This document shows, in pieces, positions 3,815-48,784 of a stretch of DNA of 64,000 bases. The notes beneath the pieces are model-generated. The model made no database searches and was not told where the DNA came from. It was given only the letters and a program-made list of their open reading frames with translations. Source of the stretch: Siphonodentalium dalli (Eukaryota; Mollusca; Scaphopoda; Gadilida; Siphonodentaliidae); NCBI GenBank assembly GCA_032622095.1, contig CP136068.1, positions 122,331,989 to 122,395,988 on the forward strand, read 5' to 3'. A program made the translations under genes and the position numbers. Positions within the stretch are counted from its first letter, which is position 1. Every line of letters starts with the position of its first letter.

Positions 3815-4159
3815 TTAACCCTTTACCCAACAAACCGGCCAAAACCGGCAAAATAAAGCTTCAACAGCCTAAAATATCTTCGGTCTGTCTCACTGGAACC
3901 ATACAAATATGGATATCATTGGAACCGGCTCCTTGACCACATTGTGATAGTCACAGTTATGCCCTGTGCCAATGCATTCTCTTATATATGCGAGTCGACC
4001 ATAGGTCGCCTCGCATATATAAGAGAATGCATTGTCCTAAAAATTTTTTTAATGTGTTAAGCCAATGCATTCTCTTATATATGCGAGGCGACCTATGGTC
4101 GACTCGCATATATAAGAGAATGCATTGGCACAGGGCCCTTCTGTTGGGTAAAGGGTTAA
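3815..4159 (+). mobile_element. Double-hairpin MITE, family A, copy 1 (filled site)
   Basis: It begins TTAACCCTTTACCCAACA and ends with the complement, TGTTGGGTAAAGGGTTAA. Inside are two 67-bp hairpins (about 3971-4036 and 4062-4128), each starting CCAATGCATTCTCTTATATA, and the second is the reverse complement of the first. The flanks rejoin into the uninterrupted sequence at 1381-1410, so this copy inserted at TTAA. Non-autonomous piggyBac-type is inferred. Confidence 0.9.
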
Positions 4160-4214
4160 CGATAGACTGTATATGGTCTACCGCTGCATGATCTGTTTTG
4201 CGACATTCACGATG

Positions 4215-4406
4215 ACATGTTTTCTGAACTTATTATGTGAACATTTCCCACCAATGAAATATGAATTATTCTGCTCTTGGTATTATCTGTTTTTCTGTCT
4301 GTCGTCTGCTTTTAGTACATGAGCACCCCTCCAAATGCATAATAGACTGTTCCAATGCATACGTTTATAACTGATGGGAGAATCCATTTATTAAAGACAG
4401 GGTTAA
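4215..4406. mobile_element. Family G MITE, right-end fragment
   Basis: The right part matches family G (GGGAGAATCCA followed by a degenerate terminus and TTAA at 4403-4406). The left terminus is not recognisable. Confidence 0.45.
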
Positions 4407-4437
4407 TCAGTCCTTCCCATGAGGAAAACAACAGCTA

Positions 4438-4612
4438 GAGTAATGCCCTAAGTAATCGACTCCTTAACCAGAGCAGAATTATGGGTAACTTTTCAGGATT
4501 TAGTCGGAAATATGGCTTGTTGTCATTCATCGGAAAGCTCTCGACTAAATCCTGAAAAGTTACCCATAATTCTGCTGTGGTTAAGGAGTCGATTACTTAT
4601 AGGGCATTACTT
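4438..4612. mobile_element. Pogo/mariner-like palindromic MITE, copy 1
   Basis: This is a shorter copy of the palindrome at 30817-31032, with ends related to CAGTAATGCCCTAATTAATC and TA on each side. The inner right arm is partly deleted. TA duplication and a CAGT start fit the pogo/Tigger group; this is inference from termini. Confidence 0.7.
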
Positions 4613-5049
4613 TATATAAATATATACATTTACTTAAAGCAGCGTATCGTTCAGACAGAATAGCTCATAGCTCCTTTCGTCTGGCTGTCGTCTGCTCATA
4701 AATCATTATTATTATGTCATTCCTACTCTCATTACTGCGTCATAGCGTCATATTTTCCCGTCATTCGGTATCCTTGCGCTTTAAATTAACAGAAATTGCT
4801 ATTGATGTTGCATGTAACTGTAAGATCGCGTTAGGTCTATCCATATGTTTCATTGTGAATTGGGTCGTAACAAACTGGTTTAGAAAATGTAGTAAACACA
4901 ATATCTACCCACCTCAACTGGGAATAAGTGGTAGCATGTTCGGAATTTGCATATTACAATATACTCTGGGGCAGTAAACTGTTTCTGTTGTCTTAGAAAG
5001 ACTTGTCTCGGGTATAGTTTGGTTTGGTCTACTGGAGTTAATCGTTTCA
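4613..5049. other. Intergenic, nothing recognised
   Basis: One 87-codon plus-strand frame (4714-4977) encodes hydrophobic sequence without a recognisable domain. I see no repeat or splice support. Confidence 0.4.
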
Positions 5050-5492
5050 GTCTCCCATGGCAGATGAGGCCTAAGCAGAGGGAGGTCACCAGAGGGTGAA
5101 TTTGGTGATGTTAGTCCGCTGTGCGGGGTAGCATCACTAAATTCACCCTCTGGGAACCTCATTCTGCTTAGGCCTCATCTTCTCTGGAAAGTTTCTTTTT
5201 TATCAAATTTCTATAGAATCTTCTTCACATAGATTCTATTTCTTTTTTAGTTTAGTTTCTCTATATCTCCAAATTGGCAGACGACACATTACATAATCGA
5301 AGTTCCCAATAGGTATACATCACAATATTCACCATTTGGGAACTTCAGTCTGAGTCTATGTCTCCCATAGCAAATGAGACCATGCAGAATGAGGTCCCCA
5401 GAGGGTGAATTTAGTGATGCTATCCCGCTGTGCAGGGTATAGCATAACTAAATTCACCCGCTGGGGACCTCATTCTGCAAATGTCCGGCACC
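5050..5492 (-). mobile_element. Paired-hairpin MITE, family D, copy 2
   Basis: Two GAATGAGGTCCCC hairpins (about 5073-5175 and 5387-5480) flank a spacer whose TCTCCCATAGC block is the reverse complement of the spacer in copies 1 and 3, so the element is inverted. The left terminus is replaced by a repeat of internal sequence, so this copy is rearranged. Confidence 0.65.
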
Positions 5493-7666
5493 ATATTCTC
5501 AGACCTGCACCAGATTGTCCTAAGAAATCATGGACCGTGATGAATTTAAATACATGGCGGATTGGCTGCCATATTTCCGATTCAGCTCGTATATCAGAAC
5601 GGGCTGATCACTGGTCGGATCTCACATAGTATATATTTCTACACAGGAAATTCCACTCACCAATGTGTATATTTAATGAAGAAGCAGCCCGTGGTTTTAC
5701 TTCCGTTGTAGTAATTCGATCATAGTTTGTGCGGCTTGCTGATATCCGCCGTCTAATTCGCGACAAGGAGAATTGTTTGTTCCATACACACTTAAAACGT
5801 ACATTTCTTTTTGTTTGAAACAAATTGACTCTGGTTCGAAGAAAAAGATCAATAGCTGCGAATGTCTTAAATTATGTTTGAATTATTGCAATCGTACTAG
5901 ACTCGCGTAACTTAAAGTCTGGAGTATCTTATTTGGCTTCTCTGTATTGACGCTTCAAATTGGAGTACAGCAACCTCGATATAACTCTAATTGCAGCACA
6001 AAAAATACCGATACACACAATCTACGATTGTACGAAGCTGGCAAAAAGTCCTGAAATATTGATATATAAATAAATAAATTATTATTAAATTTCCTGTGTG
6101 TTCAGGGGGGGGGGGGGGGGGGGGGGGTGGACAAAAGTTTTTTCCGGGCACGTATGCCTGGGTGGGTGGGTGGTCGATAAGACCAACAACAATTTTTTTC
6201 CGCAACTAAAAAATATTTTTCCTGCAAGTCTTTTTGACTGTTTTTGCAATGAGTTTGGCTTAAAACACATCTATATGTCAATATTAACATAAATGACAAA
6301 TTCCATGATGATCAGACAAACAGCCTGTAGCCTGTAGCCTGTAGCCCATGATGGCTGCTGGCAGCCATGTTTTTTTTTGACCGAATGACCCCAAAATGAC
6401 TTGTTCCTATTTACATGTCAATGTTAACATCCATGACTGAGAGTAATAGTATGCACAGAAATTCATATACAGCTGTGTTTAGTGAATTTTTCCCCGAAAA
6501 TCTCTGTTTTAGTGTTAAAAGGGGGATGGGTGTCCAAAAACGGGGGTGGGTGGGTCCCAACAAGGGTCAAAAGTCAAAAATCAGCATACGTGCCGTCAAT
6601 TTTTTTCCGACTCCTCCCTGATGTGTTCACAGAGATATATATATTAGTGAATAATACTTTAGAAATGAACATTCACACACTGGGATGTTATTCTGTTATT
6701 TTTTGTGTAGCCATTGAAAACCACATGGTACCAGACGATGAACGGTAACATGTATATAACATGCATCTCTACCCCAGCTAACGACATGAGAAGAAATATT
6801 TCTGTAGTTCCTCATGAAAGGTGGTTATAAATATCTGCCTATACAAATACATGTATGATTGATTCTTATAATTGCGCGAGAATTGCATGACATTTAAAAA
6901 TGCACAATCCGAATTAACGCTCCCAAATGACTACTTCTTTGGCTTCGGGAGTGAAAAATATTTTATTCGAGTGGAGGAATCCACCCATCAAAGCTCAGAT
7001 TGATCAGATATATAGATTTTTGAAATTTGTTATTTCTCGAAATGTGTAATTAGTTGTGACCCAAAAACGAGTCGTCTCGGACAAAATTGCGGATGAAGAT
7101 GGATAACTCTAAAATCAATTGGCAATACGGCCAAATTTCGTGATATTTAAGTGATAATACGGCCATATTTCGTTGAACAACATGTTGATAAATAACTCGT
7201 TTTGGGATATTTTATACCATAGTTGACAGCGGTTAGCATTATTTTGTTGTAATTAATCGATTCTGATAACAAAAGCGTATTTTGAAGAACTGTTGTTGTT
7301 GTAGTAACTTGATGACATGGGGACCATCTGATCGGATTAAATACCGTTAAATGTAATTATGGGCAAATTTCGGTAGCATCGCTATGCTGGTTGAAATACA
7401 GAGTTTTTATTTCTCACGTAGTTAGTTTGGGTTGGAGATCTATTTAATCAGCATGTTTTGGTTCGTTTTCTGCCACGTTATAGCTTTCTGTATCGAAATG
7501 CCTGCAGAAAATGCCAGGAAAATGTGCAGTTGTGTGAACGTATCCTAATGGAGAGAATATCAAGCATTGTTAATGGAGAGCTATTCACAGCGATGAACAG
7601 AGACTGACACGACAGTGGACATTACATAAATTCTTGATTTCAAATATGCAGCAAAACATTCTTAAA
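5493..7666. other. Non-coding stretch with a 23-G run
   Basis: It contains an uninterrupted G run at 6105-6127, a three-fold CCTGTAG repeat at 6326-6347 and GGGTGG-rich sequence at 6150-6172 and 6540-6560. The open frames here are products of low complexity. I recognise no gene. Confidence 0.6.
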
Positions 7667-8060
7667 GTGATGTGAAACACTCCGTAGGGTGATCAAATAG
7701 AAATTGAAAATACTCTTGCTCAAAGTAGTTATTTGTTTACGAATTTAAACACTCCGGTAGGGTGATCAAATAGAAATTGAGAACACTCTTGCTCAACGTA
7801 GTTATTTGTTTACGAATATTAATCCAAATTAACAACACGCACCGTAATTCTTATCTATTAATTCAATACAATGACTCTCGGTGGCGAAATCATTTTTGTT
7901 AGTGTATCGCCAATAGTTGCGTCTCGAATCGAGAGATAAATATTTACAATTGAGCGTAGTTCAGAAGACGTTTTCTATGGACTGGTTGGTCGATTTCTTT
8001 GAAATTTTCGGCAATGTTAGTAGAATGCTACATTCCCCAGGTTGGCATAGCGCCTGAGCA
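7667..8060 (+). repeat. Dispersed repeat J, copy 1
   Basis: It aligns over about 330 bp with 62836-63163, sharing blocks such as GTGATGTGAAACACTCCG and TGTTAGTAGAATGCTACATT. Copy 1 has an internal ~73-bp tandem duplication (7672-7744 and 7745-7815) that is single in the other copy. It is non-coding and the family is not identified. Confidence 0.75.
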
Positions 8061-8307
8061 CTAACTTATCACTTTCATGCACCCATACAATTCCATAATA
8101 CGTCTTTAACATTTGACAGGTATGCTGACAAGGAATATGGTCAAAAACAAAATACAGTAAAAATAAATCTGAAGAATCATGTGTGCCTTGTCTTAAAAAA
8201 ACATAAGTGTTGCAAAGATATCTTATTTCAATATTGATAATCATGATATTTTACACTTATCCTTATGAAGGATGGCCTCTTGCGGTACTGAAATATCATA
8301 AGCTTCA

Positions 8308-8615
8308 TTAACTCTTTCAGTGCCAGGGGCCGATCTCATCGGTCCTAATATACGGTCTGTAGAGTGCCAATGCCAATTAAATCGGCCCTGACAAAATAAA
8401 AAAATAAAAATTTGTTGTTTTTTTGGGTTGAATTTTTATTGGGTATGCTTAAGCATGCTATATCGAATTTAAAAACGAACTGGATAAAACCTTAGGGGCA
8501 TGTTATAACTTAAAACTATCACCAAGTATTCATAGTAATAATTTTGATGCCCATGAAAAACGTAAGATTCCCTAGCACTAAACCTACAAAATAAGTCTGG
8601 CACTGAAAGAGTTAA
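8308..8615. mobile_element. TTAA-flanked MITE, family B variant
   Basis: The ends are TTAACTCTTTCAGTGCCAG and CTGGCACTGAAAGAGTTAA, a 19-bp perfect inverted repeat including TTAA. The interior has no coding frame. Its right flank (AAAGAATATAAGAAC) is the spacer of a hairpin element, so it appears nested in that element at a TTAA. Confidence 0.75.
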
Positions 8616-8806
8616 AGAATATAAGAACAAATTATTAAAATTGTAAAAAATTGTAAAAATAATAACAAATGATGATTTTTTTTTAGGCCAATGCATTCTC
8701 TTATATATGCGAGGCGACCTATGGTCGACTCGCATATATAAGATAATGCATTGGCACAGGGTATATGGGTTGATACAAAAATCGGACTTGGCACTGAAAG
8801 GGTTAA
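8612..8806. mobile_element. Partial hairpin element with family B right terminus
   Basis: It has one complete CCAATGCATTCTC hairpin (about 8689-8756). This is followed by CACAGGGTATATGGGTTGA and then the family B end, CACTGAAAGGGTTAA. The hairpin module normally found in family A thus sits inside a family B terminus. The left half is missing or replaced by the nested MITE. Confidence 0.6.
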
Positions 8807-9189
8807 GGACACTTTCAGATATATATTGAACTTTTCCATGGTGGTAATTTATTATTATTGTAAAGATTAAACCATAGTACCAGAAATAAGTTTAACTCAT
8901 CGACCTTTGAAACCTGAGAGTTTCCGTTTAATATAAGTCAAGTGAAGATGATTCGAGAGCCAAAATTGTGTGATATGTTTTTACCAGAAACATATTTCTG
9001 AAGAATAAATTAAACTTAATGTGAATCCTTATGAAAATGACAAACAATACTTGGTGGTTTATTATAGAGCTGACTTGTTTTGGTTTTGATTAGAAAAAAT
9101 GTTTTTGTCATGAAAACCATGGAGTTTCATTTTGAAAGAAGCGTAAACTATTGCTCTAACAATATCTTACAGTGCGTAAACCAATTATT
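8807..9189. other. Intergenic, nothing recognised
   Basis: AT-rich sequence without repeats or open frames that I can support. Confidence 0.5.
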
Positions 9190-9540
9190 TCACCTGTTAA
9201 GCAGACGGTGCGATTAAAATCGTAAGTGGGGAAAATCGCAGGTGGAGCATCCACTGCGCATGCTCACGACAATATCGCAGCCATGTCGTAGCGATCAAGC
9301 AATGTTTTATTTTTACCAGGAAAATCGTGGCGTGACCTTGGCAACGAGCGCGATCGTATAGCTGTCACATGACCATGCTCGCACTGGTCTCACAATTTAC
9401 ATGGCAGCACATGCTCGATCACGTGGATAAAATCGTAGCTGCAGACATCGCAGCACCGTAGCGTCTGCGGGCAAGCCACTTTTATCCACCTGCGATTTTC
9501 CCCACTTACGATTTTAATCGCAGCGTCTGCGATGGCACTA
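9190..9540. mobile_element. Harbinger-like MITE, family C, copy 1
   Basis: Inverted termini share CGATTAAAATCGTAAGTGGG followed by GAAAATCGCAGGTGGA. The interior holds short inverted repeats around ATCGCAGC and is GC-richer than its surroundings. It is related to 38259-38618, which has a clear TTA duplication. The exact boundaries are not resolved here. Confidence 0.6.
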
Positions 9541-10079
9541 AGTAATCTATAACTGCAGTGGATAGCTTGCTTTAACTATGTATATCAATTTCTGGAATAT
9601 TTAGTTTCGGAAAAATAATCACAATGTTGGCATAAAACATCTCTCAAGTTAGCACCTTGTAAAGATATTAGTCACATGGTCGCAATTATAAATTAGGTCG
9701 ATATCGTATGATGAGATTCATGTTGTGTAATAACACGTGGAAGATTGCGACATGCGCGCGACATGCGCTATTAAATATTTCTCAGCATGCTTAAATTCCA
9801 ACCGAACGAACACGTCTAACAAGACATCTTGTTTGTCGATAGATTCTTGGATTTCATATGGGCGCAAAAACATGCCTGACATGTGTTTTCTTCAATTGTA
9901 AATTTAATCCTTTTAAAACATATGACAATGCATTTGAGCAAAACAACAAACACAGCCAACAATTATTCTGAAGGATCACAATGTTGATTACAGAATTAAT
10001 ATATGACAGCATACTTTGGTAATAATTGTGTAGGTGTGGTAGCTATAACGTCAGTTATACAAGATACATAGAGAATATT
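9541..10079. other. Intergenic, nothing recognised
   Basis: AT-rich, with no supported gene or repeat. Confidence 0.5.
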
Positions 10080-10182
10080 TACATTTTTTGGTTCGATATG
10101 GGAATTATCTCATGAGTGATGACAAAAACAATTTTTGTCATCACGAATAAGATAATTACCATATCCAACCAAAAAGTGTAGA
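10080..10182. repeat. 103-bp inverted repeat
   Basis: The two arms match nearly throughout, meeting at GATGACAAAAACAATTTTTGTCATC. Terminal parts ACATTTTTTGGTT and AACCAAAAAGTGT pair. It is probably a small foldback MITE. The target duplication is not clear. Confidence 0.6.
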
Positions 10183-10775
10183 TGTTCTGTTTATTATATG
10201 CACTGCTTAGTTGGCCCATTGATCAACTCAAATAGAAGAGTAAAAAGTACAAATTGTATACCCAAGCACAGCCATGGTAGTGAGCTTGTGCCTATAAAAC
10301 AGTTCTATTTTTTAGACAGTTTGGTTGAAGGATAAAGAGGCTAACATCAGTATGTTTAACACAAAGATTTAGTTCATCACATATTACATTTTTTTCAAAC
10401 TGAACCTTTAGCACAGTCTTCCAACAAGAAACCGAATCACTTTTAATTTTAGCGCTGATAGATACGAGTGAGATATCGATATCTCACTAGACTGATAACG
10501 GTTTTTATCTGATGCAAAAATACTACTATTTGATAATAAAATATGTTATTGCAATAGCACATCAATGGTCATTTGCAAACATATAACATACACATAATAT
10601 AAAACACACATGTACAGTAATAGCATGAATTAAACCAGAACCCGACTCAGTCAAAATTTATGTTCTGTACTCAATCATAAGTTGTTCAAATAAGTATTAT
10701 GCAATTGATAAACTCTGTCGCTTTTCAAAGAAGGATCGGATCATGTCACATATGATATTTATGGTCTTGTGTCAT
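10183..10775. other. Intergenic, nothing recognised
   Basis: A short perfect palindrome GAGTGAGATATCGATATCTCACT lies near 10472. Otherwise it is AT-rich sequence without supported features. Confidence 0.4.
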
Positions 10776-10905
10776 TCAATGGATATTGGTTATATACTCG
10801 CTTATTGCTGCGAAACAACTAAAGTTTTCGTATGCCGGACAATTCATAACAATGTGTGATTCTGTCTCAACCGAGTTCGTCTTACATACAGGACATATAG
10901 CCACA
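10776..10905 (-). pseudogene. LINE ORF2 C-terminal zinc-binding remnant
   Basis: The minus strand reads CPVCKTNSVETESHIVMNCP, a C-x2-C-x(n)-H-x4-C motif of the kind found downstream of the reverse transcriptase in Jockey/CR1/I-type LINEs. The frame runs about 35 codons to a stop at 10776-10778. No RT domain adjoins it; upstream is a tandem repeat. It is a dead 3' fragment and the clade is not assignable. Confidence 0.5.
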
Positions 10906-10906
10906 C

Positions 10907-11035
10907 ACCCGTGTCGTATCGACAAACCACTCACACACTAGTGTCGTATCGATAAACTCGCTCACACACTCGTTTCGTATATCGACAAACCCACGCACAC
11001 ACTCGTACTGTGTCGACAAACCTGTTATATGTAGC
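10907..11035. repeat. Tandem repeat, ~35-bp unit, four copies
   Basis: Four diverged copies of CACACWCGTNTCGTATCGACAAAC follow one another. It directly abuts the LINE remnant. The repeat is degenerate and short. Confidence 0.7.
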
Positions 11036-11159
11036 TCTCGACAGCACTGGTTTGGCAATGTCCATTGCCTTAATGAGTCGAAATTTCCTGATGTAGAATT
11101 CCCCTTTGTCCTTTTTAAATGTGATCTGTAGTTGAGTTGTTTCCGGCCGAATTCAGAGC

Positions 11160-11310
11160 AAGGCGGTCGGACTGCAATGTGCAGGTCCCGTCACACCAAC
11201 TTGTTGTTTCGATGAAGCTCGATCATGTTGGCGGTGGATGTTGTGCAGACCCCTTCACCCTAACTTGTTGTTTCGATGAAGCTCGATCATATTGTCCGTG
11301 GCTGTTGGTA
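11160..11310. repeat. Tandem duplication of ~66 bp
   Basis: AACTTGTTGTTTCGATGAAG followed by CTCGATCAT occurs twice, at about 11198 and 11264, within GC-richer sequence that may belong to the retroelement remnant on the minus strand. Confidence 0.7.
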
Positions 11311-11559
11311 TAAAGAGGCTGTCTGGCGATAGGGCGGTGTGGAGTTGTCAGTTGATGTGAGTTTTTCCTCTGTTTTTGGTTCTGATGGTCATGTCGGTAA
11401 AATTTTATTAAGAATATCGTCTGCTTTCCATTTTTGTCCCCTTTCTGCTTTCGCTTTGTCGTCTTCGAGTGTTGCTGTTTCGGTTGTTATGGGGGAGGCA
11501 GGTGAAGACTCTGGTTAGATTTATTACGGAGTTTTCGGGTCGAAGTCTAATGTGTCCGC

Positions 11560-14199: not shown

Positions 14200-14599
14200 T
14201 TAACCCTTTACCCAACAAACCGGCCAAAACCGGCCAAATAAAGCTTCAACAGCCTAAAATATCTTTGGTCTGTCTCAATAGAACCATACAAATATGGATA
14301 TCATTGGAACCGGCTCTTTGACCACATTGTGATAGTTACAGTTATGCCCTGTGCCAATGCATTCTCTTATATATGCGAGTCGACCATAGGTCGCCTCGCA
14401 TATATAAGAGAATGCATTGGCCTAAAAAAATGCACGTTTCAACACTTTTTACCATTTTTTCTTACATTCTTTAACAATTTTTTTATTTTTAATGTGTTAA
14501 GCCAATGCATTCTCTTATATATGCGAGGCGACCTATGGTCGACTCGCATATATAAGAGAATGCATTGGCACAGGGCCCTTCTGTTGGGTAAAGGGTTAA
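14200..14599 (+). mobile_element. Double-hairpin MITE, family A, copy 2
   Basis: TTAACCCTTTACCCAACA at the start and its complement at the end bound two CCAATGCATTCTC hairpins (about 14353-14419 and 14502-14568). Left subterminal sequence CGGCCAAAACCGGCC is itself an inverted repeat. Same orientation as the copy at 3815. Confidence 0.9.
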
Positions 14600-15621: not shown

Positions 15622-16016
15622 TTAACCCTTTAGCCAACAGAACGGCCATGTGCCAATGCATTCTCTTATATATGCGAGTCGACCATAGGTCGCCTCGCAT
15701 ATATAAGAGAATGCATTGGCCTAACACATTAAAAATTATAAAATTGTTAAAGAATGTAAGAACAAATGGTAAAAAGTGTTAAAATGTTTTTTAGGCCAAT
15801 GCATTCTCTTATATATGCGAGGCGACCTATGGTCGACTCGCATATATAAGAGAATGCATTGGCACAGGGCATAACTGTAACTATCACAATGTGGCCAAGG
15901 AGCCGGTTCCAATGATATCCATATTTGTATGGTTCTATTGAGACAGACCGAAGATAATTTAGGCTGTTGCAGCTTTATTTGGCCGTTTTTGGCCGGTTTG
16001 TTGGGTAAAGGGTTAA
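15622..16016 (-). mobile_element. Double-hairpin MITE, family A, copy 3
   Basis: The element is reverse-oriented relative to copies 1 and 2 and is bounded by TTAA. The hairpins lie at about 15653-15720 and 15794-15861, with the ~75-bp AT-rich spacer between them, then the AAGCTTTATT-like arm and TTGTTGGGTAAAGGGTTAA. Confidence 0.9.
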
Positions 16017-16210: not shown

Positions 16211-16676
16211 ATATGTGACCCGCCATATCAAATCCAGTCGTAAGTCGGGATTTTTTTTACCCTGTGCCAATGCATTCTCTTATATATGCGAGTCGACCAT
16301 AGGTCGTCTCGCATATATAAGAGAATTCATTGGTCTAACAATGTTTTATCATTGTTTTTAAATAGATGTTTCTTACAATTTTTAGGACATAAAATAAAAA
16401 ACATCCATTACCCTGCGGGGAGCCCCACACATATATAGAAGCATATAGAAGAGTGTCGTCTTCTCATGTTTTTCTGGGGCTCTGTATGGGTGAAATTATA
16501 AAATTGTTAAAGAATACAAGAAAAAATTATTAAAATTGTAAAAAATTGTTAGGCCAATGCATTCTCTTATATATGCGAGGCGACCTATGGTCGACTCGCA
16601 TATATAAGATAATGCATTGGCACAGGGTAAAAAAAATCCCGACTTACGACTGGAATTGATATGGCGGGTCACATAT
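16211..16676 (+). mobile_element. Hairpin element with GTGACCCGCC termini, copy 1
   Basis: The ends GTGACCCGCCATATC and its complement GATATGGCGGGTCAC are next to ATAT on both sides. Just inside are CAGTCGTAAGTCGGGATT and the same paired CCAATGCATTCTC hairpins seen in family A. The inter-hairpin spacer carries an extra ~100-bp inverted insert (GGGGAGCCCCACACATATA). It is non-coding. Confidence 0.85.
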
Positions 16677-17327: not shown

Positions 17328-17696
17328 TTAACCCTTTAGCCAACAGAACGGCCCTGTGCCAATGCATTCTCTTATATATACGAGTCGACCATAGGTCGCC
17401 TCGCATATATAAGAGAATGCATTGGCTTAACACATTAAAAATTATAAAATTGTTAAAGAATGTAAGAAAAAATGGTAAAAAGTGTTAAAAAAAGTTTTTT
17501 TTTAGGCCAATGCATTCTCTTATATATAAGAGAATGCATTGGCACAGGGCATAACTGTAACCATCACAATGTGGTCAATGAGCCGGTTCCAATGATATCC
17601 ATATTTGTATGGTTTTATTGAGACAGACTCAAGATAATTTAGGCTGTTGCAGCTTTATTTTGCCGTTTTTGGCCGGTTTGTTGGGTAAAGGGTTAA
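17328..17696 (-). mobile_element. Double-hairpin MITE, family A, copy 4 (internal deletion)
   Basis: TTAA-bounded and reverse-oriented. The first hairpin (17357-17424) is complete. The second (17505-17539) has lost the whole loop-proximal part symmetrically and reads CTCTTATATATAAGAG at its centre, so it is now a shorter perfect palindrome. Confidence 0.9.
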
Positions 17697-18297: not shown

Positions 18298-18777
18298 ATA
18301 TGTGACCCGCCATATAAAATCCAGTCGTAAGTCGGGATTTTTTTTACCCTGTGCCAATGCATTCTCTTATATATGCTAGTCGACCATAGGTCGCCTCGCA
18401 TATATATAAGAGAATGCATTGGCCTAACAATTTTTTACAATTTTAATAATTTTTTCTTGTATTCTCTGGTATTCTTTAACAATTTTAGAATTTCACCCAT
18501 ACAGAGCCCCAGACAAACATGAGCAGACGACACTCTTCTATGTGCTTCTATATATGTGTGGGGCTCCCTGCAGGGTAACGGATGTTTTTTTTATTTTATG
18601 TCCTAAAATTTTTAAGAAACAGTTATTTAAAAAAAATGATAAAAAATTGTTAGGCCAATGCATTCTCTTATATATGCGAGGCGACCTATGGTCGACTCGC
18701 ATATATAAGAGAATGCATTGGCACAGGGTAAAAAAATCCCGACTTACAACTGGATTTGATATGGCGGGTCATATATA
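18298..18777 (-). mobile_element. Hairpin element with GTGACCCGCC termini, copy 2
   Basis: Same termini, paired hairpins (about 18353-18422 and 18655-18722) and internal GGGGCTCCC insert as at 16211, with the spacer insert in the opposite orientation. The flanking ATAT is embedded in a TATATA run. Confidence 0.85.
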
Positions 18778-19780: not shown

Positions 19781-20044
19781 TGAACCCTTTCATGACGGGG
19801 ATTTGCGCTGGTGCAGCATTAAATAACATGTGCCAGTGCATTCTCTTATATATTCGAGTCGACCATAGGCCGCATCGCATATATAAAAGAATGCACTGGC
19901 TTACAAGATCAAGGTAAATATTGTTAGGCCAATGCATTCTCTCATATATGCGAGGCGACCAATGGTTGACTCGCATATATAAGAGGATGCATTGGCACAG
20001 GGTTTTCATAAAAATTCAGGACGCTTCAGTCATCAAATGGTTAA
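19781..20044. mobile_element. Hairpin MITE, family E, copy 1
   Basis: Termini AACCCTTTCATGACGGGG and the degenerate complement at the right lie next to TGAA and TTAA. It carries the paired hairpins (about 19832-19900 and 19926-19995) with a very short spacer. The loop-proximal stem is of the CGACC type, as in family A. Confidence 0.75.
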
Positions 20045-24190: not shown

Positions 24191-24465
24191 TTAACCCTTT
24201 CATGGCGGGTTCATGGTGGGTGCTGCGCTGTTGCAACTTTAAAGATCCTGTGCCAGTTCATGATCTTATATATGCGAATCTCCCATAGGGAGCCTCGCAT
24301 ATGTAAGATAAATGAGCTGGCTTACAAGGTCACCGTAAATATTGTTAGGTCAATGTTTTCTCTTATAAATGCGAGGCTCCCTATGGGAGACTGACATATA
24401 TAATAAAATACATTGGCACAGGGTTTTCTCAAACTTCCAGGAAGCTCCAGTCATTGAAGCGTTAA
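24191..24465. mobile_element. Hairpin MITE, family E, copy 2
   Basis: TTAACCCTTTCATGGCGGG to the right end at GCGTTAA, TTAA on both sides. It has paired hairpins with a CTCCC/GGGAG loop-proximal stem instead of CGACC/GGTCG. It is non-coding. Confidence 0.75.
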
Positions 24466-24797: not shown

Positions 24798-25075
24798 TTA
24801 ACCCTTTCATGACTGGAGCTTCCTGAATGTTCGCAAAAACCCTGTGCCAATGCATTCTCTTATATATGATAAAAAAAAGATTTTTTTTTTTTAAAGAATG
24901 TAAGAAAAAATGATAAAAAAAATAGAAAATTGTTAAAGAATATAAGAAAAAATTAAAAATAATTGATAGGCCAATGCATTCTCTTATATATAGGTCGTCT
25001 CGCATATATAAGAAAATGCATTGGCACAGGGTCTTTAATGTTGCGCCAGCGCAGCTCTCGTCATGAAAGGGTTAT
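24798..25075. mobile_element. Hairpin MITE, family E, copy 3 (degenerate hairpins)
   Basis: The ends are TTAACCCTTTCATGACTGGA and GTCATGAAAGGGTTAT. The first hairpin is cut short and followed by an A/T-rich spacer; the second has lost one loop-proximal arm. The spacer is of the family A type (GTTAAAGAATATAAG), so modules are mixed. Confidence 0.7.
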
Positions 25076-30787: not shown

Positions 30788-30816
30788 ACTGTTTGCAATA
30801 TGTTCTGTTATATATA

Positions 30817-31032
30817 CAGTAATGCCCTAATTAATCGACTCCTTTAACCACAGCAGAATTATGGGTAACTTTTCAGGATTTAGTCGGAAATGTGGCTTGT
30901 TGCCATTCATCGGAAAGCTCTTCCCGGAGAGCTTTCCGATGAATGGCAACAAGCCATATTTCCGACTAAATCCTGAAAAGTTACCCATAATTCTGCTGTG
31001 GTTAAAGGAGTCGATTAATTAGGGCATTACTG
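30817..31032. mobile_element. Pogo/mariner-like palindromic MITE, copy 2
   Basis: A 216-bp near-perfect palindrome starts CAGTAATGCCCTAATTAATC, ends with its complement and is flanked by TA (30815-30816, 31033-31034). The centre is GAGCTCTTCCCGGAGAGCTTTC-like with almost no loop. A shorter sibling is at 4438-4612. It is non-coding. Confidence 0.85.
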
Positions 31033-31344
31033 TATTTTGATGATCAGAATACTAACAAATTGAAATGAAATGTGTTCGCACGATAAGCAACATATTATCG
31101 TGCAAATAGGTCCCATACGGATAAATAATTTGAGACGAAGAACAAAGGGACCGTGTTTAATATTTAGTGACATCTCGCAACGATCCCACAGGTATGATTC
31201 TTTAATTTCCCTTTGTACATTCAAACATGTGAGTTTAATTTGTTTTCTAACTAGTCTAACACTCGAGAACATAATAGCTATCCGCCGTTTGTTCGATAAA
31301 ATAATAATAGCGCAGATATATTTTATTGCACAGTGCATGTCCGC

Positions 31345-34167: not shown

Positions 34168-34431
34168 CAAACCTTTCATGACGGGAGCTGCGCTGGTGCA
34201 ACATTGCAAATCCGGTGTCAGTGCATCCTCTTATATATGCGAGTCTCCAATAGGGAGCCTCGCATATATAAGAGAATGCACTGGCTTACATGGTCCAGGT
34301 AAATGTTGTTAGACCAATGCATTATCTTATGTATGCGAGGCTCACTATGTGAGACTCGCATATATAAGAGAATGCATTGGCACAGGGTTTTCGCAAAACA
34401 TTTCAGGAAGCTCCAGTCATGAAAGGGCTAA
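34168..34431. mobile_element. Hairpin MITE, family E, copy 4
   Basis: The ends are ACCTTTCATGACGGGAGC and the complementary CCAGTCATGAAAGGGC. The two hairpins are about 34214-34283 and 34312-34380. The second has a CTCAC/GTGAG loop-proximal stem, a third variant beside CGACC and CTCCC types. The flanking TTAA is degraded. Confidence 0.75.
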
Positions 34432-37508: not shown

Positions 37509-37509
37509 C

Positions 37510-37977
37510 ATATGTGACCCGCCATATCAAATCCAGTCGTAAGTCGGGATTTTGTTTAACCCTGTGCCAATGCATTCTCTTATATATGCGAGTCGACCAT
37601 AGGTCGCCTAGCATATATAAGAGAATGCATTGGCCTAACAATTTTTACGATTTTAATAATTTGTTCTTGTATTCTTTAACAATTTTATAATTTCACCCAT
37701 ACAGAGCCCCAGACAAACATTAGCAGACGACACTCTACTATATGCTTCTATATATGTGTGGGGCTCCCTGCAGGGTAATGGATGTTTTTAATTTTATGTC
37801 CTAAAAATTGTAAGAAACATTTATTTTAAAAAACATGATAAAAAATTGTTAAGCCAATGCATTCTCTTATATATGCGAGGCGACCTATGGTCGACTCGCA
37901 TATATAAGATAATGCATTGGCACAGGGTAAAAAAAAATCCCGACTTACGACTGGATTTGACATGGCGGGTCACATAT
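37510..37977 (-). mobile_element. Hairpin element with GTGACCCGCC termini, copy 3
   Basis: Same termini, ATAT flanks, paired hairpins (about 37566-37634 and 37853-37921) and GGGGCTCCC spacer insert as copies 1 and 2. The uninterrupted equivalent in unit H is at 36614-36625 (ATCACATATGCATGC), which places the insertion in CATATG. Confidence 0.85.
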
Positions 37978-37990
37978 GCATGCTCTACTA

Positions 37991-39500: not shown

Positions 39501-39640
39501 TAGCGAGGCTTGACAGACCGGAAGACAGCTTCCCCATAATGACCTGACCTCGGGGTCACGTGCGATTTCCGCTTTGATGTCGGCAGACGCTTGGGTTGTT
39601 CGAGGATTGATGTACTGCTCTCGTTTGGGACGGGAAATCA

Positions 39641-41359: not shown

Positions 41360-41655
41360 CCAAAAACCCTGCTCCAACATCAGTTAAGACGAACGAAAAA
41401 TCACATAAACCCCACCAAATGTTATAGCTATCAAATCATCCATAACCCATATATAGCAATATGCTCTGGAAGGCACTACACCAATCACCATAAAATCACA
41501 AAATATTGCATGTAAATATGTTCAGCTGTCATCTTGTAAACATTTTGTATCTAAATCGATTGTATTGGGAGAGGGGCTTCATAAGTTGAAAAAACTTGTG
41601 CCCCGATCCCTTTTGTATTATATGCAAATAAAATACGTTTCAAGTCAAGTCAACA
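41360..41655 (+). mobile_element. LINE 3' tail, copy 2
   Basis: It is the longer partner of copy 1. The end reads GGGAGAGGGGCTTCATAAGT, AACTTGTGCCCCGATCCC, then AAATAAAATACGTTTC and a short (AAGTC)n tail. AAGTT and GGGGC pair with AACTT and GCCCC. It is non-coding. Confidence 0.7.
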
Positions 41656-42419
41656 TCATCCATCCTGCAACCATGCACCAATTACCCATTACATGGAATA
41701 GTTTTGGTATGGACCAGAGACACCACCTTAAATCACATGTTTTTGTGTATATGTTGGTTATATAATCAGGCCTTGATCACCTCATCAACGCCAGGGGTTG
41801 TCAGGAAGACATTACTCAATATTAAGACATCCCCTGAGCCGTAATTTCGCTAAAATCCGGATTGAGAATCCAAAGCCGATTACGGGGGGCGGAGCTAATT
41901 TCGGATTCTAGGTCAGATTTTGAAATCCACGTGGTCTCCGAAAATCTCTCCCAGCGTCAAACATGGCTCATGTATTTGACAAAAGTATCATTTGTATCTT
42001 ATATTTATAAAGTGCATGTTTGTTGTGAAATCATGCTTTTCGTCTATGTGTATATACACGGCACATAATTTGCTGCCAATCCGACTTAATCGCATCTTTT
42101 TTTTCAAGTTAAAGTGTGTTTATTGATGTTGGCAAGCATATCTAAACATGACAGCTCTAGGCCTCCTGAATCAAATTCCAAAGATGTTGTGAAGAACACA
42201 CGAAACTTGTCAGTTGAACAGCGACGTGACGACAGGGGTTGCTTGTGTGTCTCGACCCCCACCCCGATTTTTGGTACAATTTGCTAAGCTGTGCAGTCAT
42301 TCATACGTGAGGAAAATCAGGATTATTTTGACTAACTGTTTCAAATAATGATACGTACAAGCCAACAAACGCAACAAACAAACAAACCCGATTTTAAATA
42401 AATACATATACAAACTTAT
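41656..42419. other. Intergenic, nothing recognised
   Basis: Around 41850-41950 TGAGAATCCAAAGCCGATTA and TCCGATTTCGG-type phrases recur imperfectly, and similar ones are seen at 43520-43690 (CCGAATCC, AATCGGATT). No gene is called. Confidence 0.35.
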
Positions 42420-42665
42420 GACTAACTCGGGAGAGGGGGTGTCCAGTGATCTGTATATATGTTCAACTTGTTTTGGTAGTCATGTACGTTGCTTTGCCAT
42501 TACTAATTATTTATTTTTTCAGTGTAATAACATTTGGGAGAGGGGGTACCCTTAAGTGAGTCAGTACTTGTCCCCCAATTCCTTTGTATGTATAAACAAA
42601 TGTATGTGTTATATATCATGTGTTATCTAAATTTGACATATATTTGAAATAAATATATCTAAACT
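42420..42665 (+). mobile_element. LINE 3' tail, copy 3 (diverged)
   Basis: GGGAGAGGGGGTACCCTTAA, then ACTTGTCCCCCAATTCC and AAATAAATATATC follow the same order as copies 1 and 2. The stem is GGGGG/CCCCC in place of GGGGC/GCCCC, so pairing is kept. Confidence 0.5.
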
Positions 42666-42938
42666 AAACTTTGGTACATTCCAGCAGTCGGAAATTTCAT
42701 GCATGACACAACATTAGTTGGACATTAATTTGACACCATATATAGGTTGGCATTGTTCTCATTGTTTGATTTTTTTCAACCAGTGAAAGTTGGTAATTTT
42801 CCAATCTTAGTGTTTGTCAGATTGGATATTTCCAAGGGGAGCAAATTGAATTCTGCGAACCTGTGAGATTGATGTTTGGTTCAAGGGGGGGGGGGGGTGC
42901 AGTTGGCCGTAAATTTGAGGAAACTTCTAGCCACGTCC

Positions 42939-43150
42939 CTAGAACATGTGTCTGTTGTCTATACAGAGACTATTGTGCAAAACGACTGCATTTAACGAAA
43001 CAAAACATGTTAAACATGAAATTGCTATAACATTAAGACTAGATGATAGTACATACGTGTATCTGATAATCCATCGATACCATATAATCCTACTATTTCT
43101 TGAATAAGAAGAAACATTATAATAACGAACACAGCAGAAGACATATCCAT
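42939..43150 (-). CDS. Candidate two-exon small secreted peptide, minus strand
   Basis: The ATG at 43150 opens 31 codons plus one base: MDMSSAVFVIIMFLLIQEIV forms a signal-like hydrophobic stretch, followed by GLYGIDGLSDT. The exon ends at ACAC|GTATGT. A 71-bp intron (42986-43056) ends in TGTTTCGTTAAATGCAG. Exon 2 adds LVLHNSLCIDNRHMF and TAG at 42939-42941. Phases agree (1/1). The product of 46 residues is very short, unrecognised, and could be a coincidence of splice-like signals. Confidence 0.25.
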
Positions 43151-43853
43151 GCAGGTGCATATGAACTCGGTCAATGGTGACGTATCCGCCGAATTCGAAA
43201 TCGACATGCGTTCGGGCGGTATTTTAAGGATGGAATTATGAAATGGACATATGAAAGTGACAATCAACAATGAATTTCAATTTCTTCGCCATCAACCGAA
43301 GTGCTCCCCCAGCGTTACTATCAATAGCGTTATTATTTGGCTAATTTCAGTAATATTCTCCCAGTTTACATTCAATAAAACAAATTTGTCTCCGCATTTA
43401 AAATTCTTTGATATAGATCGTTTATATTCTGCAATAATTTGTACACAAGAGACGGATTCTTATGTTTTATTGTGTTTTTAAACTCTGAGGTGGCGAAATC
43501 TCGGTTTGTTTACATTACGAACATTTGAGTCCGTAATCGGAATCCGAATCCCTATCGGATTCCCACGAAATTAGGATTACGGTCTGTTCGTTTACTGATT
43601 CTGGAAATTTGTGGTCTGTTCTTTTGCCGAACCAAGTCGTACGGGGACAAATCTGTAATCTGAATCCAGAATCCAAATCGGATTTTAGCGAAATAACGCC
43701 TCTAAGTTGGTCATGTTGATGTCGTCCTGAGGTGATGTTGTTTTTATAATTGGTGTTGTTTCGAGGTACTGTTATGGTGATAGTTTTGGTGTAATTTGGA
43801 TGTCATTTAATATTTGAGTTCATTCAAAACCAGAAAGACAGTTCAAAATGTCG
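43151..43853. other. Intergenic, nothing recognised
   Basis: No supported features beyond TCCGAATCC-like phrases at 43530-43690. Confidence 0.4.
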
Positions 43854-44126
43854 TTAACACTTTCTATTAGAAATACTCGCTTATACATAATACATGAGTA
43901 GTTACCCCATGAAATGTTCAGAAAATAAGTACAACAACGACAATGAACATATTATCTGAATGTTTCCCTCTAATGCAAAATAGGAAACTCCCTCCACGTT
44001 TATTATCTTTTAGCCAGTCTCTCATCTGCTGATTTTTCCTGAACACCCGAATAGACCGTAATATACAATTTCTATATATACTAGTATAACCGAGTTGGCG
44101 AATATATTTAGTATAGAAAGCGTTAA
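43854..44126 (+). mobile_element. TTAA-flanked MITE, family G, copy 4
   Basis: It begins TTAACACTTTCTATTAG and ends TTAGTATAGAAAGCGTTAA, with TTAA on both sides. The interior keeps AAATGTTCAGA and CATGAGTAGTTACC as in copy 1. It is non-coding. Confidence 0.65.
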
Positions 44127-44154
44127 AATACAGATCTACGTCAAGCTACCAACA

Positions 44155-44500
44155 GAAATATTGAATGAATGAATGAATGAAAGTTTATTGCAAAGTCACT
44201 TAATATAGCGAAACAAGCACAAACATATTTACACTATGTACACATTCAATCGTGCACACACATTCGTGTGTACATATAGGTGTTATACAGATTCAAATCC
44301 AGTATATAAATATTATATTCATAAAAAAAAACTTAACAGAGAAGCACAATTTAATAACTAGTTTTTGCAATTTCTTAAACGCTATTTCAATGAAAAACAT
44401 ACATTTTGTTTTAGAACGCCCATGTTCTGAAGAGTTAGCAGACCGTGAATCTTTTCCCTGGTGGGATTTTCCAAATAATATTTGGGGATGTACCACTGGC
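44155..44500 (-). mobile_element. LINE 3' tail with (ATTC)n end, minus strand
   Basis: On the minus strand the segment ends GCAATAAACTTTCATTC followed by a four-fold ATTC repeat (44160-44180), as LINE copies with short tandem 3' tails do. The upstream frame (44293-44496) has no recognisable domain. Confidence 0.45.
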
Positions 44501-45676
44501 GGATTTGTTTCAAAAAATGTTATTCATTACCAATATCTGAGGACAAGGTAGCGATGGAATAGTAGGTGTGGCATCTTATTATGGTGGAGTTTGGTGACAA
44601 TTGGTTATCATAATTACTATGCCATAACTAGCCGTGTCGCCCGCTGAGTTTTCACACAATGAGCCTACTGGTTCAATTAGCCCATTGCGTCTCATCAAGG
44701 TTGATCTCTACTCATTACGTATAGCTATATTTTATTGTTTTCTACGATATATATAGTTGCACGATCGTTCAGAATTGTGTTTGACCGTGGCAATCCCCCA
44801 TTCACCCACATGTACGTAGTCCGTTTTATTGGTTTGAATCAAATATATGTTCACCCCCTCTGAGAAACTCATTAGCGTTAGTGCAAACTGCTAGCTTGCA
44901 TGGAGTTATGCAAAAAAATTACGTCTAGGCCTCCACACATAACAATCGAATGTATAATTGATTTATCCCACATTATAGTGGTATTCCATTTGTCTGAGTT
45001 GTATTTTCTGAATCTACTTAGAATTCCTCTTTTTGAACGATTACCATTGTGTGTTTTAGCCGCATATCTCCACAGACAATGGTCCCCGCCTATTTGTTAT
45101 TCGTATATGCAATTACTCAATAAAACATATGTCGTGGTGTGCCATATTGTCCATGCCTTTCATCCAATAGTAGTATGCTGTGTGCCAATTAACGGTGTGA
45201 ATACAAAAGATGATAACAGAAAACTTCCTCAATTACGTTTTAAATCGGGTTTAGCATTGTAGCAATTTTTGCCCGTATAAGCAGTCGATAATGTTCGCAA
45301 TCTGCCAACAATAAATAACAGAGTCATCAAATTGACACACGCGCACTTAACAAAGTGACCCGCGAGCTTGTTTTGTTAAACGTACATATCAATACTATAA
45401 AGTTGTATTCGGTAATTCACTCGAGTACCATTGTAATACACATGGAGAAACCAATCCCTTGTGCCCAAAGCTGTGTCACAGAGAATACTATATGATAAAA
45501 CAATTGGACGACAATAGTATGTGTGTCTGAGTAGATGTGACAAAAGGCTTCTGTAACAAACAAAAACAAGTTTTCAGTTTGACTAACCAATTCGTTTACA
45601 TATATGATGCATGGATCACACATGACCACACCTATATTTGCAGGGATTGGTTTTATAAACTACCACTAATAACCAT
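44501..45676. other. Intergenic, one unsupported long frame
   Basis: A plus-strand frame of 120 codons (44900-45262) is the longest outside transposons and the array. It is hydrophobic and cysteine-containing, with no domain, signal peptide or splice support that I can name. It may be chance. Confidence 0.3.
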
Positions 45677-46066
45677 TTAACCCTTTACCCAACAGAAGGG
45701 CCCTGGGCCAATGCATTCTCTTATATATGCGAGTCGACCATGGGTCGCCTCGCATATATAAGAGAATGCATTGGCTTAACACATTAAAAATTATAAAATT
45801 GTTAAAGAATGTAAGAAAAAATGGTAAAAAAAGATTTTTTTTAGGCCAATGCATTCTCTTATATATGCGAGGCGACCTATGGTCGACTCGCATATATAAG
45901 AGAATGCATTGGCACAGGGTATAACTGTAACTATCACAATGTGGTCAAGGAGCCGGTTCCAATGATATCCATATTTGTATGGTTCTATTGAGACAGACCG
46001 AATATATTTTAGGCTCTTGAAGCTTTATTTGGCCGGTTTTGGCCGGTTTGTTGGGTAAAGGGATAA
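45677..46066 (-). mobile_element. Double-hairpin MITE, family A, copy 5
   Basis: TTAACCCTTTACCCAACAGA at the left, TTGTTGGGTAAAGGG at the right; TTAA on the left and a mutated ATAA on the right. The hairpins lie at about 45708-45775 and 45846-45913, exact reverse complements apart from single changes. Confidence 0.9.
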
Positions 46067-46642
46067 GCCCATTATAGCCAGGTTCAGCAACACGTACTTG
46101 TAACGTTTAACGTGTGCTGCCATTGCCAACTGAAGTCACCTTACTCACATGAAAAAATCGCCTACTAGTACCAGGTCAAACCGCTTAGAAACGTTTGTGT
46201 CCAAAGAATAGCACATATATACGAAACGTGTAGCAAAGAGGAATAATACAATATTCCGATAAACGAATGAGCGAAACACGATGTGCAAGCATCGGGATAA
46301 TGGGATTTGCATGTGCGGAAATGTCTTATTTAGATTGAAGCCAATCAAGCGTTACATGTTACACGTAATTGTGGCTGAACCTGACTAATATGACACATTC
46401 GCCGTTGTACAATGCATTCAGTAGCCTGTTTGTGGACATCCGTTTTGACTGTCGTATTATATGCCATAAATCTACATACAATTAAACGCTAATTTGCATA
46501 CATGCATATACTGTGAGAAATTTTAAGTATAATATCGTCGTTTTTTTTAGAATTTCCGAGGCAACTAAGGACTACTACGCTATGTAAACCTTTGCATAAC
46601 TGTATTGCAAATCATTCCAACACTCAACATTTTTTTCTCCAG

Positions 46643-47217
46643 GACGATGCGTCTTCAATGTTGACTGATTATGTCCATGTCGAGGATATATACGTATGGT
46701 TTGACGTGAACATCAAACAAGGCTCTCGATATCCAACTATTGCATCGGCTTATAAAGGTAATTGTCAAACTATATACCGCCCATTAACCCTTTACCCAAC
46801 AGAACGGCCCTGTGCCAATGCATTCTCTTATATATGCGAGTCGACCATAGGTCGCCTCGCATATATAAGAGAATGCATTGGCTTAACACATATTAAAAAT
46901 GATCAAATTGTCAAAGAATGTTGAAAATATTATAAGAAAAAATGGTAAAAAGTGTTAAAAAAGATATTTTTTAGGCCAATGCATTCTCTTATATATGCGA
47001 GGCGACCTATGGTCGACTCGCATATATAAGAGAATGCATTGGCACAGGGCATAACTGTAACCATCACAATGTGGTCAATGAACCGGTTCCAATGATATCC
47101 ATATTTGTATGGTGTTATTGAGACAGACCGAAAATATTTTAGGCTGTTGAAGCTTTATTTGGGCGTTTTTGGCCGGTTTGTTGGGTAAAGGGTTAATTTC
47201 CAGCCATCCATAAATAG
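46643..47217 (+). CDS. Candidate 3' exons of an unrecognised small gene
   Basis: An internal exon (46643-46757, 115 bp) follows an excellent acceptor (CAACATTTTTTTCTCCAG) and ends at TATAAAG|GTAATT. It encodes DDASSMLTDYVHVEDIYVWF and continues to SRYPTIASAYK. A terminal exon after ATTAATTTCCAG (47204-47217) completes the split codon and adds AIHK and TAG. The intron (46758-47203) consists of about 37 bp plus the family A element at 46784-47196. A possible first exon (46412-46453, MHSVACLWTSVLTV, hydrophobic) ends at a weak donor GTC|GTATTA in the right phase. Function is unknown. Confidence 0.35.
46784..47196 (-). mobile_element. Double-hairpin MITE, family A, copy 6 (intronic)
   Basis: TTAA-bounded, reverse-oriented, with hairpins at about 46815-46882 and 46976-47043. 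It lies inside the last intron of the candidate gene at 46643-47217. Removing it leaves a 37-bp intron ending ATTAATTTCCAG. Confidence 0.9.
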
Positions 47218-47289
47218 AAACGGGAAGCATGGCCGGTTGTCACAAACTTTCACCAGACATCACGCTCGTTTTTCGGGCGACGCTTTGTG

Positions 47290-47520
47290 GCACCACCAAC
47301 TGTATACCTAAATCATCTGGATCCACCGACATCACAGTTAATTCAGCACCATCCACCATCGTCGCTAAATAAGCAGGACTCACCAACATCGTAGCGCTGT
47401 ATAGCAAGACCAGTAAACAAGGCCAGGATATAGGTCTGACACTTCCAGACAGAGAAGGCAGTTCGGCAAACACTAACAAGCTAGACATATCGGTCCAATA
47501 CACGAAACATTACACCATTC
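47290..47520 (-). repeat. Degenerate 30-bp minisatellite plus unit U scrap
   Basis: On the minus strand the translation keeps a ten-residue period (TMLVSPAYLA, TMVDGAELTV, MSVDPDDLGI). This matches the MVLAGPADLV period of the main array. CAGACAGAGAAGGCAGTTCG (about 47446) matches the unit U copies at 49552 and 59320. Confidence 0.55.
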
Positions 47521-47679
47521 CATATACGCACAGTACATACCGCACATCAACAGCCTGCCATCCATAATTATAATATGCAGAGCACGAACGTTTGTAATAA
47601 GCCTTGTCACTGGTTCGCCATTTTCAAGATGGCCGATGGTTCCATATGGTCCGATTCCTAGCATTTTACCCAACCCACC

Positions 47680-48145
47680 GGTAAAAGGTCAAAGTTAAGA
47701 AGTAGCTAGCATCCATTTGTAAACATTCGACAGTGCGAGCATTTTTTATCAGCATTTGATGGCATACTTTCAGTATAACGGGTTTAAGAATTGTTTTGTG
47801 GCCATGTCATCTACAGAGTTAGGATCTGGTGACGATGCGGACATTAATTCAGACGTTTAAGCGATGGACGCCCCCTTTTGTCAACGAACTTCTCATAATT
47901 GACTGATAAATAGCGAGTATTTGCGATAAAAAAAATAACGCAAAAACATATGTGATACACCCAATCCATCTACTGTGCGAAACCTACGTATTGTATGTAC
48001 TCAGGGTGATTGTTTAATTAGTTTTATGAAGTTGTCGCACCTGCTATTCGATAACGAACTGTTGCCATTTTATTGTGGGAATTCCCAGACTGGAGCCATA
48101 TGCTATATATAGATGCTACTTCTTAACTTTGACCTCCGGAGACCA
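47680..48145. mobile_element. Element with GGTCAAAGTTAAGAAGTAGC termini
   Basis: An inverted 20-bp repeat, GGTCAAAGTTAAGAAGTAGC at the left and its complement at the right, bounds 466 bp. Inside, a 34-codon frame from 47749 ends with MSSTELGSGDDADINSDV, an acidic stretch, and stops. The superfamily is unknown; the target duplication is not clear. Confidence 0.5.
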
Positions 48146-48389
48146 AATGGCGGATTCACCGCGGGTTAGTGATCTTATACTTATACACTCTCAGCATACA
48201 TGACGCCCGTTTTCATTGAATACGGGGATACATATACGCCAAAGGTGGACATACGCTTTAATTGCGAACATTTTCCCCACCAACAAGCATAGTTAAATCG
48301 GTAGGTCCGACCGATATTATAATATTACTCCAAGACCACCAGACAAGTTAACAAGAATTGAATACGACTGCCACTTATGGGGACAGGGG

Positions 48390-48784
48390 TTAACCCTTTA
48401 CCCAACAGAAGGGCCCTGTGCCAATGCATTCTCTTATATATGCGAGTCGACCATAGGTCGCCTCGCATATATAAGAGAATGCATTGGCTTAACACATTAC
48501 AAATTATAAAATTGTTAAAGAATGTAAGAAAAAATGGTAAAAAGTGTTTAAAAAATATTTTGTTTAGGCCAATGCATTCTCTTATATATGCGAGGCGACC
48601 TATGGTCGACTCGCATATATAAGAGAATGCATTGGCACAGGGCATAACTGTAACTATCACAATGTGGTCAAGGAGCCGGTTCCAATGATATCCATATGTG
48701 TATAGTTCTATTGAGACAGACCGAAGATATTTTAGGCTGTTGAAGCTTTATTTGGCCGGTTTTGGCCGGTTTGTTGGGTAAAGG
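48390..48784 (-). mobile_element. Double-hairpin MITE, family A, copy 7 (right end clipped)
   Basis: It starts with TTAACCCTTTACCCAACAGA and has hairpins at about 48420-48487 and 48569-48636. It stops at TTGGGTAAAGG without GTTAA. The following bases belong to a LINE remnant. Confidence 0.85.

Follow-up and report, generated by a model that had tools for sequence, protein, structure and literature searches.

In a 64,000-nucleotide stretch of the genome of the scaphopod Siphonodentalium dalli (C8:122331989-122395988 in a 2.227-Gb genome of nine contigs, assembly GCA_032622095.1; the whole stretch is hereafter called the window), fifteen short elements carry one and the same inner cassette, with one or two hairpins, within shells whose termini are unrelated and whose target duplications differ (TTAA for shells A and B', AWWT for shell C), as an earlier note on this DNA had supposed. 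On balance, we favor the reading that this module is a cis cassette of miniature inverted-repeat transposable elements (MITEs) that derived from a fourth shell, E, was joined to the other three, and was then amplified with them. The cassette can be followed from one older family to three younger shells and bears on the question of how a MITE gains cis signals for its amplification.

A shared hairpin cassette within four different shells

The module is built from CCCTGTG, a first hairpin, an AT-rich spacer, a second hairpin, and CACAGGG, as in the example at 48414..48642 (+); as the earlier note described, the two heptamers border the hairpins on the outside. Each hairpin is 67 bp long, with a 26-bp arm, a T.C mismatch, a further 5 bp, and an ATA loop, and folds as DNA at -33.2 kcal/mol (z -14.2). 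The orientation of each hairpin is near-constant, and of 103 cases shown, 98 retain the T.C mismatch, pointing one way with respect to CCCTGTG. What is held in common goes beyond the hairpins by themselves, because part of the spacer is included. In the window, a core 20-mer is matched 54 times when up to three mismatches are allowed, compared with a mean of 0.02 in shuffled sequence. The genome-wide search that the earlier note had proposed yields 137,010 + 137,088 = 274,098 exact occurrences of the 26-bp arm and none of a reversed control; the core GCGAGTCNNCCATAGGNNGCCTCGC occurs 64,344 + 64,155 times, and CCCTGTGCCAATGCATTCT with a non-G letter fourteen bases outside 75,021 + 74,569 times. 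A known structured RNA was rejected on the basis that the window contains no Rfam match at gathering scores, and Helitron-type hairpin ends on the basis that the termini are inverted and the duplications 4 bp long.

All fifteen loci of the earlier note were found, and they comprise seven A, one B', three C, and four E elements. Its description of a complete pair in each, with the second hairpin an exact reverse complement of the first, holds in part: two hairpins are readable in 13 of the 15 elements (that at 8308 has one, and both of those at 24798 are damaged), and among these 13 the second hairpin matches the reverse complement of the first exactly in four, with 1-3 mismatches in four, and with 9-29 in five, which have indels or are old E copies.

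Shell A, TTAACCCTTTACCCAACA, places its hairpins 31 bp from one tip and 154 bp from the opposite tip. Two intact hairpins that are exact reverse complements are present at 14200..14599 (-), 15622..16016 (+), and 46784..47196 (+). The remaining A elements lie at 3815..4159 (-; TTAA, two hairpins), 17328..17696 (+; second hairpin shortened), 45677..46066 (+; right TTAA decayed), and 48390..48784 (+; right tip broken, both hairpins intact). The B' element, which had been noted as a family B copy at 8.7 kb, occupies 8308..8806 (-) and has dissimilar ends: a B-type end at 8806 (...TATCAACCCATATA followed by CCCTGTG), one hairpin at 8688-8754, and part of the spacer lead to a different far end, F, at 8308.

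Shell C, GTGACCCGCCATATC..., is symmetric and holds an additional inner piece, D (CCCTGCAGGGAGCCCC...). Its copies, to which no strand was assigned, are at 16211..16676 (ATAT duplication, two hairpins, piece D), 18298..18775 (right end read by eye), and 37510..37977 (ATAT flanks). Piece D itself spans window positions 16411-16490, 18496-18575, and 37696-37775, and a 73-74% relative of it, with one hairpin and no C shell, is found at loci L072/L073. Shell E, TTAACCCTTTCATGAC..., measures ~265 bp and is the most diverged of the shells. Its copies are at 19781..20044 (+; young hairpin core, old spacer type), 24191..24465 (+; old CTCCC core), 24798..25075 (-; both hairpins damaged, longer AT-rich spacer), and 34170..34431 (+; left tip decayed). 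The sequence TTAACCCTTTCATGACGGG, as typed in the earlier note, does not occur in the window, near versions of it being present at 19781, 24191, 24798, 25075, and 34170. Tips of the form TTAACCCTTT are common to A, B/B', and E.

Beyond the window, two other unselected samples were used, the loci L001-L020 and nine random 6-kb stretches (L080-L088), together with loci picked for exact 26-mers in the first 3 Mb of contig C1 (L021-L040) and for exact copies of an old hairpin core on C1 (L045-L064); the counts of end assignment, consensus hairpins, and variation exclude L072-L079 and the nine random stretches, which were read by eye. Of 125 CCCTGTG-hairpin ends, 116 were assigned (A short 18, A long 19, B 10, C 18, E left 22, and E right 29) at a cut-off that 3 of 300 random flanks pass, with one C assignment (L006:1146) made on a T tract only. 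Among the nine unassigned ends, three keep E bases beside CCCTGTG and six are without a full shell. In a genome list of 100 such ends, which covers the first 5.3 Mb of C1, omits ends with a G fourteen bases outside, and includes many near-identical neighbors from local tandem blocks, 96 fall in the four shells when judged by eye on 14 letters each; the other four form two pairs, each of near-identical loci. The only copies in the random stretches are of C, E, and B', and each either has its shell or is cut off inside it. With nearly all ends lying in known shells in both sets, the earlier suggestion that the hairpin pair moves independently is not borne out.

Target sites of the shells

At paralogous empty sites of A, a single TTAA is found in comparisons of L021 with L020 and four window places, and of the element at window 3815 with window 1360; for the A copy in L026, the empty-site alignments are ragged and clean at one place. 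The repeat that supplies the empty site for A in L021 is present at window 4435-4614 and 30815-31040 and in L020, L021, and L047, with oppositely directed copies close to one another. For B', a gapped alignment of L031 with window 62066 gives a paralogous empty site with one TTAA, and for C, L034 is matched by a nearby copy with one ATA. The flanks of C are identical on both sides in four of five copies (AAAT, ATAT, ATTT, and ATAT) and read ATAT/AAAT in the fifth; a further copy in L087 has ATTT/ATAT by eye. Several E copies carry TTAA tips on both sides, and with TTAACCCTTT tips of the kind seen in piggyBac-type MITEs, E is a putative TTAA shell.

The tips of A and B' read TTAA-CCCTTT and contain the motif CC[C/T]T. 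A TTAA target together with CC[C/T]T tips is the pattern of piggyBac (PMC2872659), and hence, by duplication and terminal motif, shells A and B' fit piggyBac-type MITEs. Kolobok, the other TTAA group, has termini 5'-RR and YY-3' (PMC9587614) and was rejected, as the tips here begin with CC. Shell C shows the AWWT 4-bp duplication reported for Sola2 (PMC3627910). Judging from the target sites, the shells are probably moved by different enzymes.

Shell ends with and without the module

B-type ends that lack the module are frequent, with 5,525 + 5,441 = 10,966 exact occurrences genome-wide; one such B element, with TTAA tips, lies in the window (1478..1681, no strand assigned). Nearly all of those listed continue with TTCCTT or a near form. 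As the module-less ends have this continuation of their own, B can be regarded as a separate MITE and B' as an abrupt chimera, and the module-less B ends present a natural control.

No sizeable module-less family of A, C, or E emerged from genome searches with exact patterns, which miss mutated copies and are weakest for the old E. The A short end occurs 344 times without the module next to it; among 100 of these listed, ~41 have GGCCAAA next, as the long A end does, and 16 are one C shorter there, while the remainder are mixed, a few with TTTT. The A tip has other continuations in 53 exact cases and the C tip in 14, and two of the latter loci (L075 and L076) still contain the module on reading.

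A different origin for the module could be that it was once itself a transposon, with CCCTG... ends and a TA duplication, which entered several shells by insertion and was afterwards left without its enzyme. Such an insertion would account for the observation that all six end types join the module exactly at CCCTGTG, and TA does follow CACAGGG in C and B'. Shell-free half-modules consisting of D and one hairpin are bordered by TA at either end in L006:1001-1146 and L007:881-1097, and L072/L073 contain an older piece of the same make. However, the T tract of C is also present in L006, L007, and L032, which may therefore be broken C copies, the A and E junctions are without TA on both sides, and an empty site was recovered for none of five candidate loci. 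The exact searches for emptied shells likewise returned no C without its D-hairpin half, no palindromic C without the module, and a single E, which is a deletion keeping CCTGTG. We consider a former transposon unlikely. No module copy with its own clean target duplication outside a shell, of the kind that the earlier note had proposed to look for, was shown. An insertion of the module into the center of a palindromic C shell was rejected as well, given the zero exact empty forms. Other shell-free pieces are a C module without C shell (L032/L074), a truncated piece (L035), and the other half of C (L027).

An older hairpin version in shell E

The E family carries an older version of the hairpin, in which most of the changes are compensated within base pairs. 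At all 67 sites, A short, A long, B', and C share one consensus hairpin, whereas E left and E right depart from it at six and five sites, respectively; hairpins with indels do not enter these per-site counts or those that follow. The six E-left differences form three base pairs that remain paired (4-64, 29-39, and 30-38), and one E-right difference is uncompensated. In a table of 65 distinct hairpin rows, two of which are opposite-direction rereadings of hairpins that have CCCTGTG at either end (L037 and L054), 77 cells are compensated, whereas 500 shuffles that ignore relatedness average 36.6 such cells and never exceed 47; 213 cells of the same table depart otherwise, as in plain decay. This compensation suggests that the palindrome was kept in the source copies.

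The old core has 3,288 exact copies genome-wide. Among the 37 ends at the 20 loci retrieved with this core, 32 are E, one belongs to a B' neighbor with a young core (L054), and four are unassigned. Young cores also occur within E shells, at window 19781 and in L013, and these are intermediates of the module, so that for the module the series of intermediates that the earlier note had named as counter-evidence to its reading is seen in part. The spacer of L013 aligns with those of B', A, and C at 67/77, 48/56, and 50/61 positions, respectively. The B' spacer matches that of C at 44/45 positions and that of A at 35/41; it is thus nearer to the AWWT shell although B' has TTAA ends, so that module and termini disagree, a point that the earlier note had proposed to test. 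Spacers cluster by shell (13 label changes, with a minimum of 8 and 44.5 in shuffles), which indicates that exchange was rare.

These relations also bear on whether all termini descended from one ancestral element by ordinary divergence, with no exchange. The clustering of spacers would be expected under such descent, as would the TTAACCCTTT tips shared by A, B, and E and the young-core E shells as module intermediates. Yet C has other tips and AWWT duplications, B ends exist in large numbers without the module, the B' spacer is nearest to that of C, and A, B', and C have one and the same young hairpin next to unrelated shells. Common descent without exchange is, in our view, very improbable.

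Possible constraint on the hairpins

For A and B' copies in the window and L001-L020, and with hairpins containing indels filtered out beforehand, 18 of 458 shell sites are off consensus compared with 10 of 1206 hairpin sites (p 5e-5). Differences shared between copies number eight in the shells and none in the hairpins, and the disparity in singletons is small (p 0.04 in this set and 0.08 in all copies). Constraint on the source elements fits this pattern better than homogenization after insertion, on what are small numbers.

Alternatively, the hairpins could be without a role, with templated repair or gene conversion maintaining the likeness of the palindromes and the cassette traveling as a passenger. 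Coupled changes at three pairs can indeed come from templated repair, and a lower variability of hairpins than of shells would also follow. But templated correction should erase the T.C mismatch, which instead persists in old and young hairpins; singletons, moreover, differ little between hairpin and shell, and many single changes in E copies are uncompensated. A cassette without a role seems rather improbable.

A possible route of assembly and role of the hairpins

Under the reading of an E-derived cis cassette, the oldest form of the module would have resided in the E family, a TTAA (piggyBac-type) MITE. In a later E lineage, compensated base-pair changes would have altered the hairpin core, and the AT-rich spacer would have become longer. 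Pieces of this young cassette would then have been joined, in at least three events, to the ends of A (TTAA), B (TTAA, with one hairpin), and C (AWWT), and each chimera amplified with an enzyme suited to its shell. Template switching during gap repair is a known mechanism, and the joins probably arose in this way in the repair of excision gaps.

piggyBac transposons target TTAA. Their identical 19-bp palindromes lie asymmetrically with respect to the tips, one palindrome being bound by two C-terminal domains (PMC11707139). By analogy, the hairpin in the TTAA shells probably serves as an oversized, oriented subterminal binding palindrome; C does not fit this role readily, and there the cassette may be carried along passively or act with a different protein.

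The genome has at least 128 matches to piggyBac genes, several with intact frames. L065, L043, L066, and L070 contain piggyBac-like genes with long open frames, and short palindromes follow TTAA tips upstream of several of these frames; the tip upstream of the frame in L065 is TTAACCCTTT. A search for terminal inverted repeats at the piggyBac loci gave none with up to 3 mismatches in 14 and nothing convincing at 4 in 12, and the putative tips were therefore read by eye upstream of the frames. A supposed 3' end of L041/L070 was rejected, as homology continues past it. With this end excluded, palindromes in five of eight non-module TTAA tips reach scores matched by at most 4 of 200 shuffles: L043, L066, and L014:4552 (0/200 each), L070 (3/200), and the F end (4/200). 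Those of L014:4847 (8/200), L065 (17/200), and the B tip (195/200) are weaker. The same test found no palindrome in the A long, B, E right, and C tips and none of significance in E left. The element at L014:4552-4847 has TTAACCCTTT and no module, with the palindrome AACGACATATATGTCGTT after its tip.

Several observations weigh against the cassette as an E-derived cis signal. At the 11 piggyBac loci inspected, no transposase has the specific ends of A, B, C, or E, and A or B subterminal sequence is present at none. The element at L014:4552 and other TTAACCCTTT MITEs lack the module, which is therefore not required by every TTAA family. C uses another target, so that one binding role cannot simply serve all shells, and the joining of every shell at CCCTGTG is more regular than random template switching predicts. 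Finally, the spacer tree has few resolved forks, and the pairwise alignments used in its place compare nine representatives of low complexity; with other copies, the B'-C match drops to 41/44 and A-B' rises to 44/51.

It is also possible, though unlikely, that the hairpin cassette acts as a portable amplification signal across piggyBac-type and AWWT-type transposases, or via a host factor. If this were true, joining the signal to other ends would have turned each into a family of very many copies. With this arrangement it can be tested whether MITE bursts are driven by inner sequence instead of the terminal repeat, and whether such a signal is able to pass from one transposon superfamily to another.

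Comparison with known composite elements

The closest precedent is the CMITE group of Acropora corals, which rules out a wholly new kind of element. CMITEs likewise combine differing terminal repeats with one conserved internal region, have TTAA duplications and piggyBac-like CCCT tips, and occur in tandem arrays; their authors suggest that the inner region helps transposition (PMC2872659). The elements described here show the same combination of different termini and one conserved inner region. They differ in that CMITEs are ~100-bp elements with a 75-base internal region and, in some rows, tens to some hundred estimated copies, whereas here there is a 67-bp hairpin pair in tens of thousands of copies; with respect to CMITEs, the novel parts are the hairpins, the compensated changes, and the move into an AWWT shell.

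Subterminal palindromes at unequal distances from the two tips, as for the hairpins in A, are described for piggyBac, and subterminal palindromes also for piggyBat; these palindromes are up to 19 bp long, compared with the 67 bp and conserved mismatch seen here (PMC11707139). Sola2 elements, some of them chimeric with Fanzor, share with shell C the duplications ATAT, AAAT, and ATTT, and the chimeras have one shared end region with entirely different other parts; they differ from shell C in being long coding elements (PMC3627910). The MER6 MITE with a SINE (short interspersed nuclear element) V domain provides another conserved inner domain riding in a DNA-transposon shell, but its donor was a SINE inserted into a Tc1/mariner MITE, whereas the apparent donor here is another MITE (PMC6887750). 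No description of the hairpin family was found in the literature by literal hairpin and terminus strings or related words, a search that had most subscription journals outside its scope.

Neighboring features and local repeats

Long frames in the window resemble, by eye, reverse transcriptases of animal long interspersed nuclear elements. Arrays of a ~30-bp unit at 50088-51865 and 53393-56065 flank one reverse-transcriptase-like frame at 51861-53096. Elsewhere, L022 (G000:C1:542000-544900) contains E-type hairpin units arranged head to tail with a ~97-bp period inside an E element, in a block that is itself repeated. At ~0.73-0.93 Mb of G000:C1, exact hairpins are spaced ~14.5 kb and then ~11.2 kb apart, which resembles large tandem blocks.

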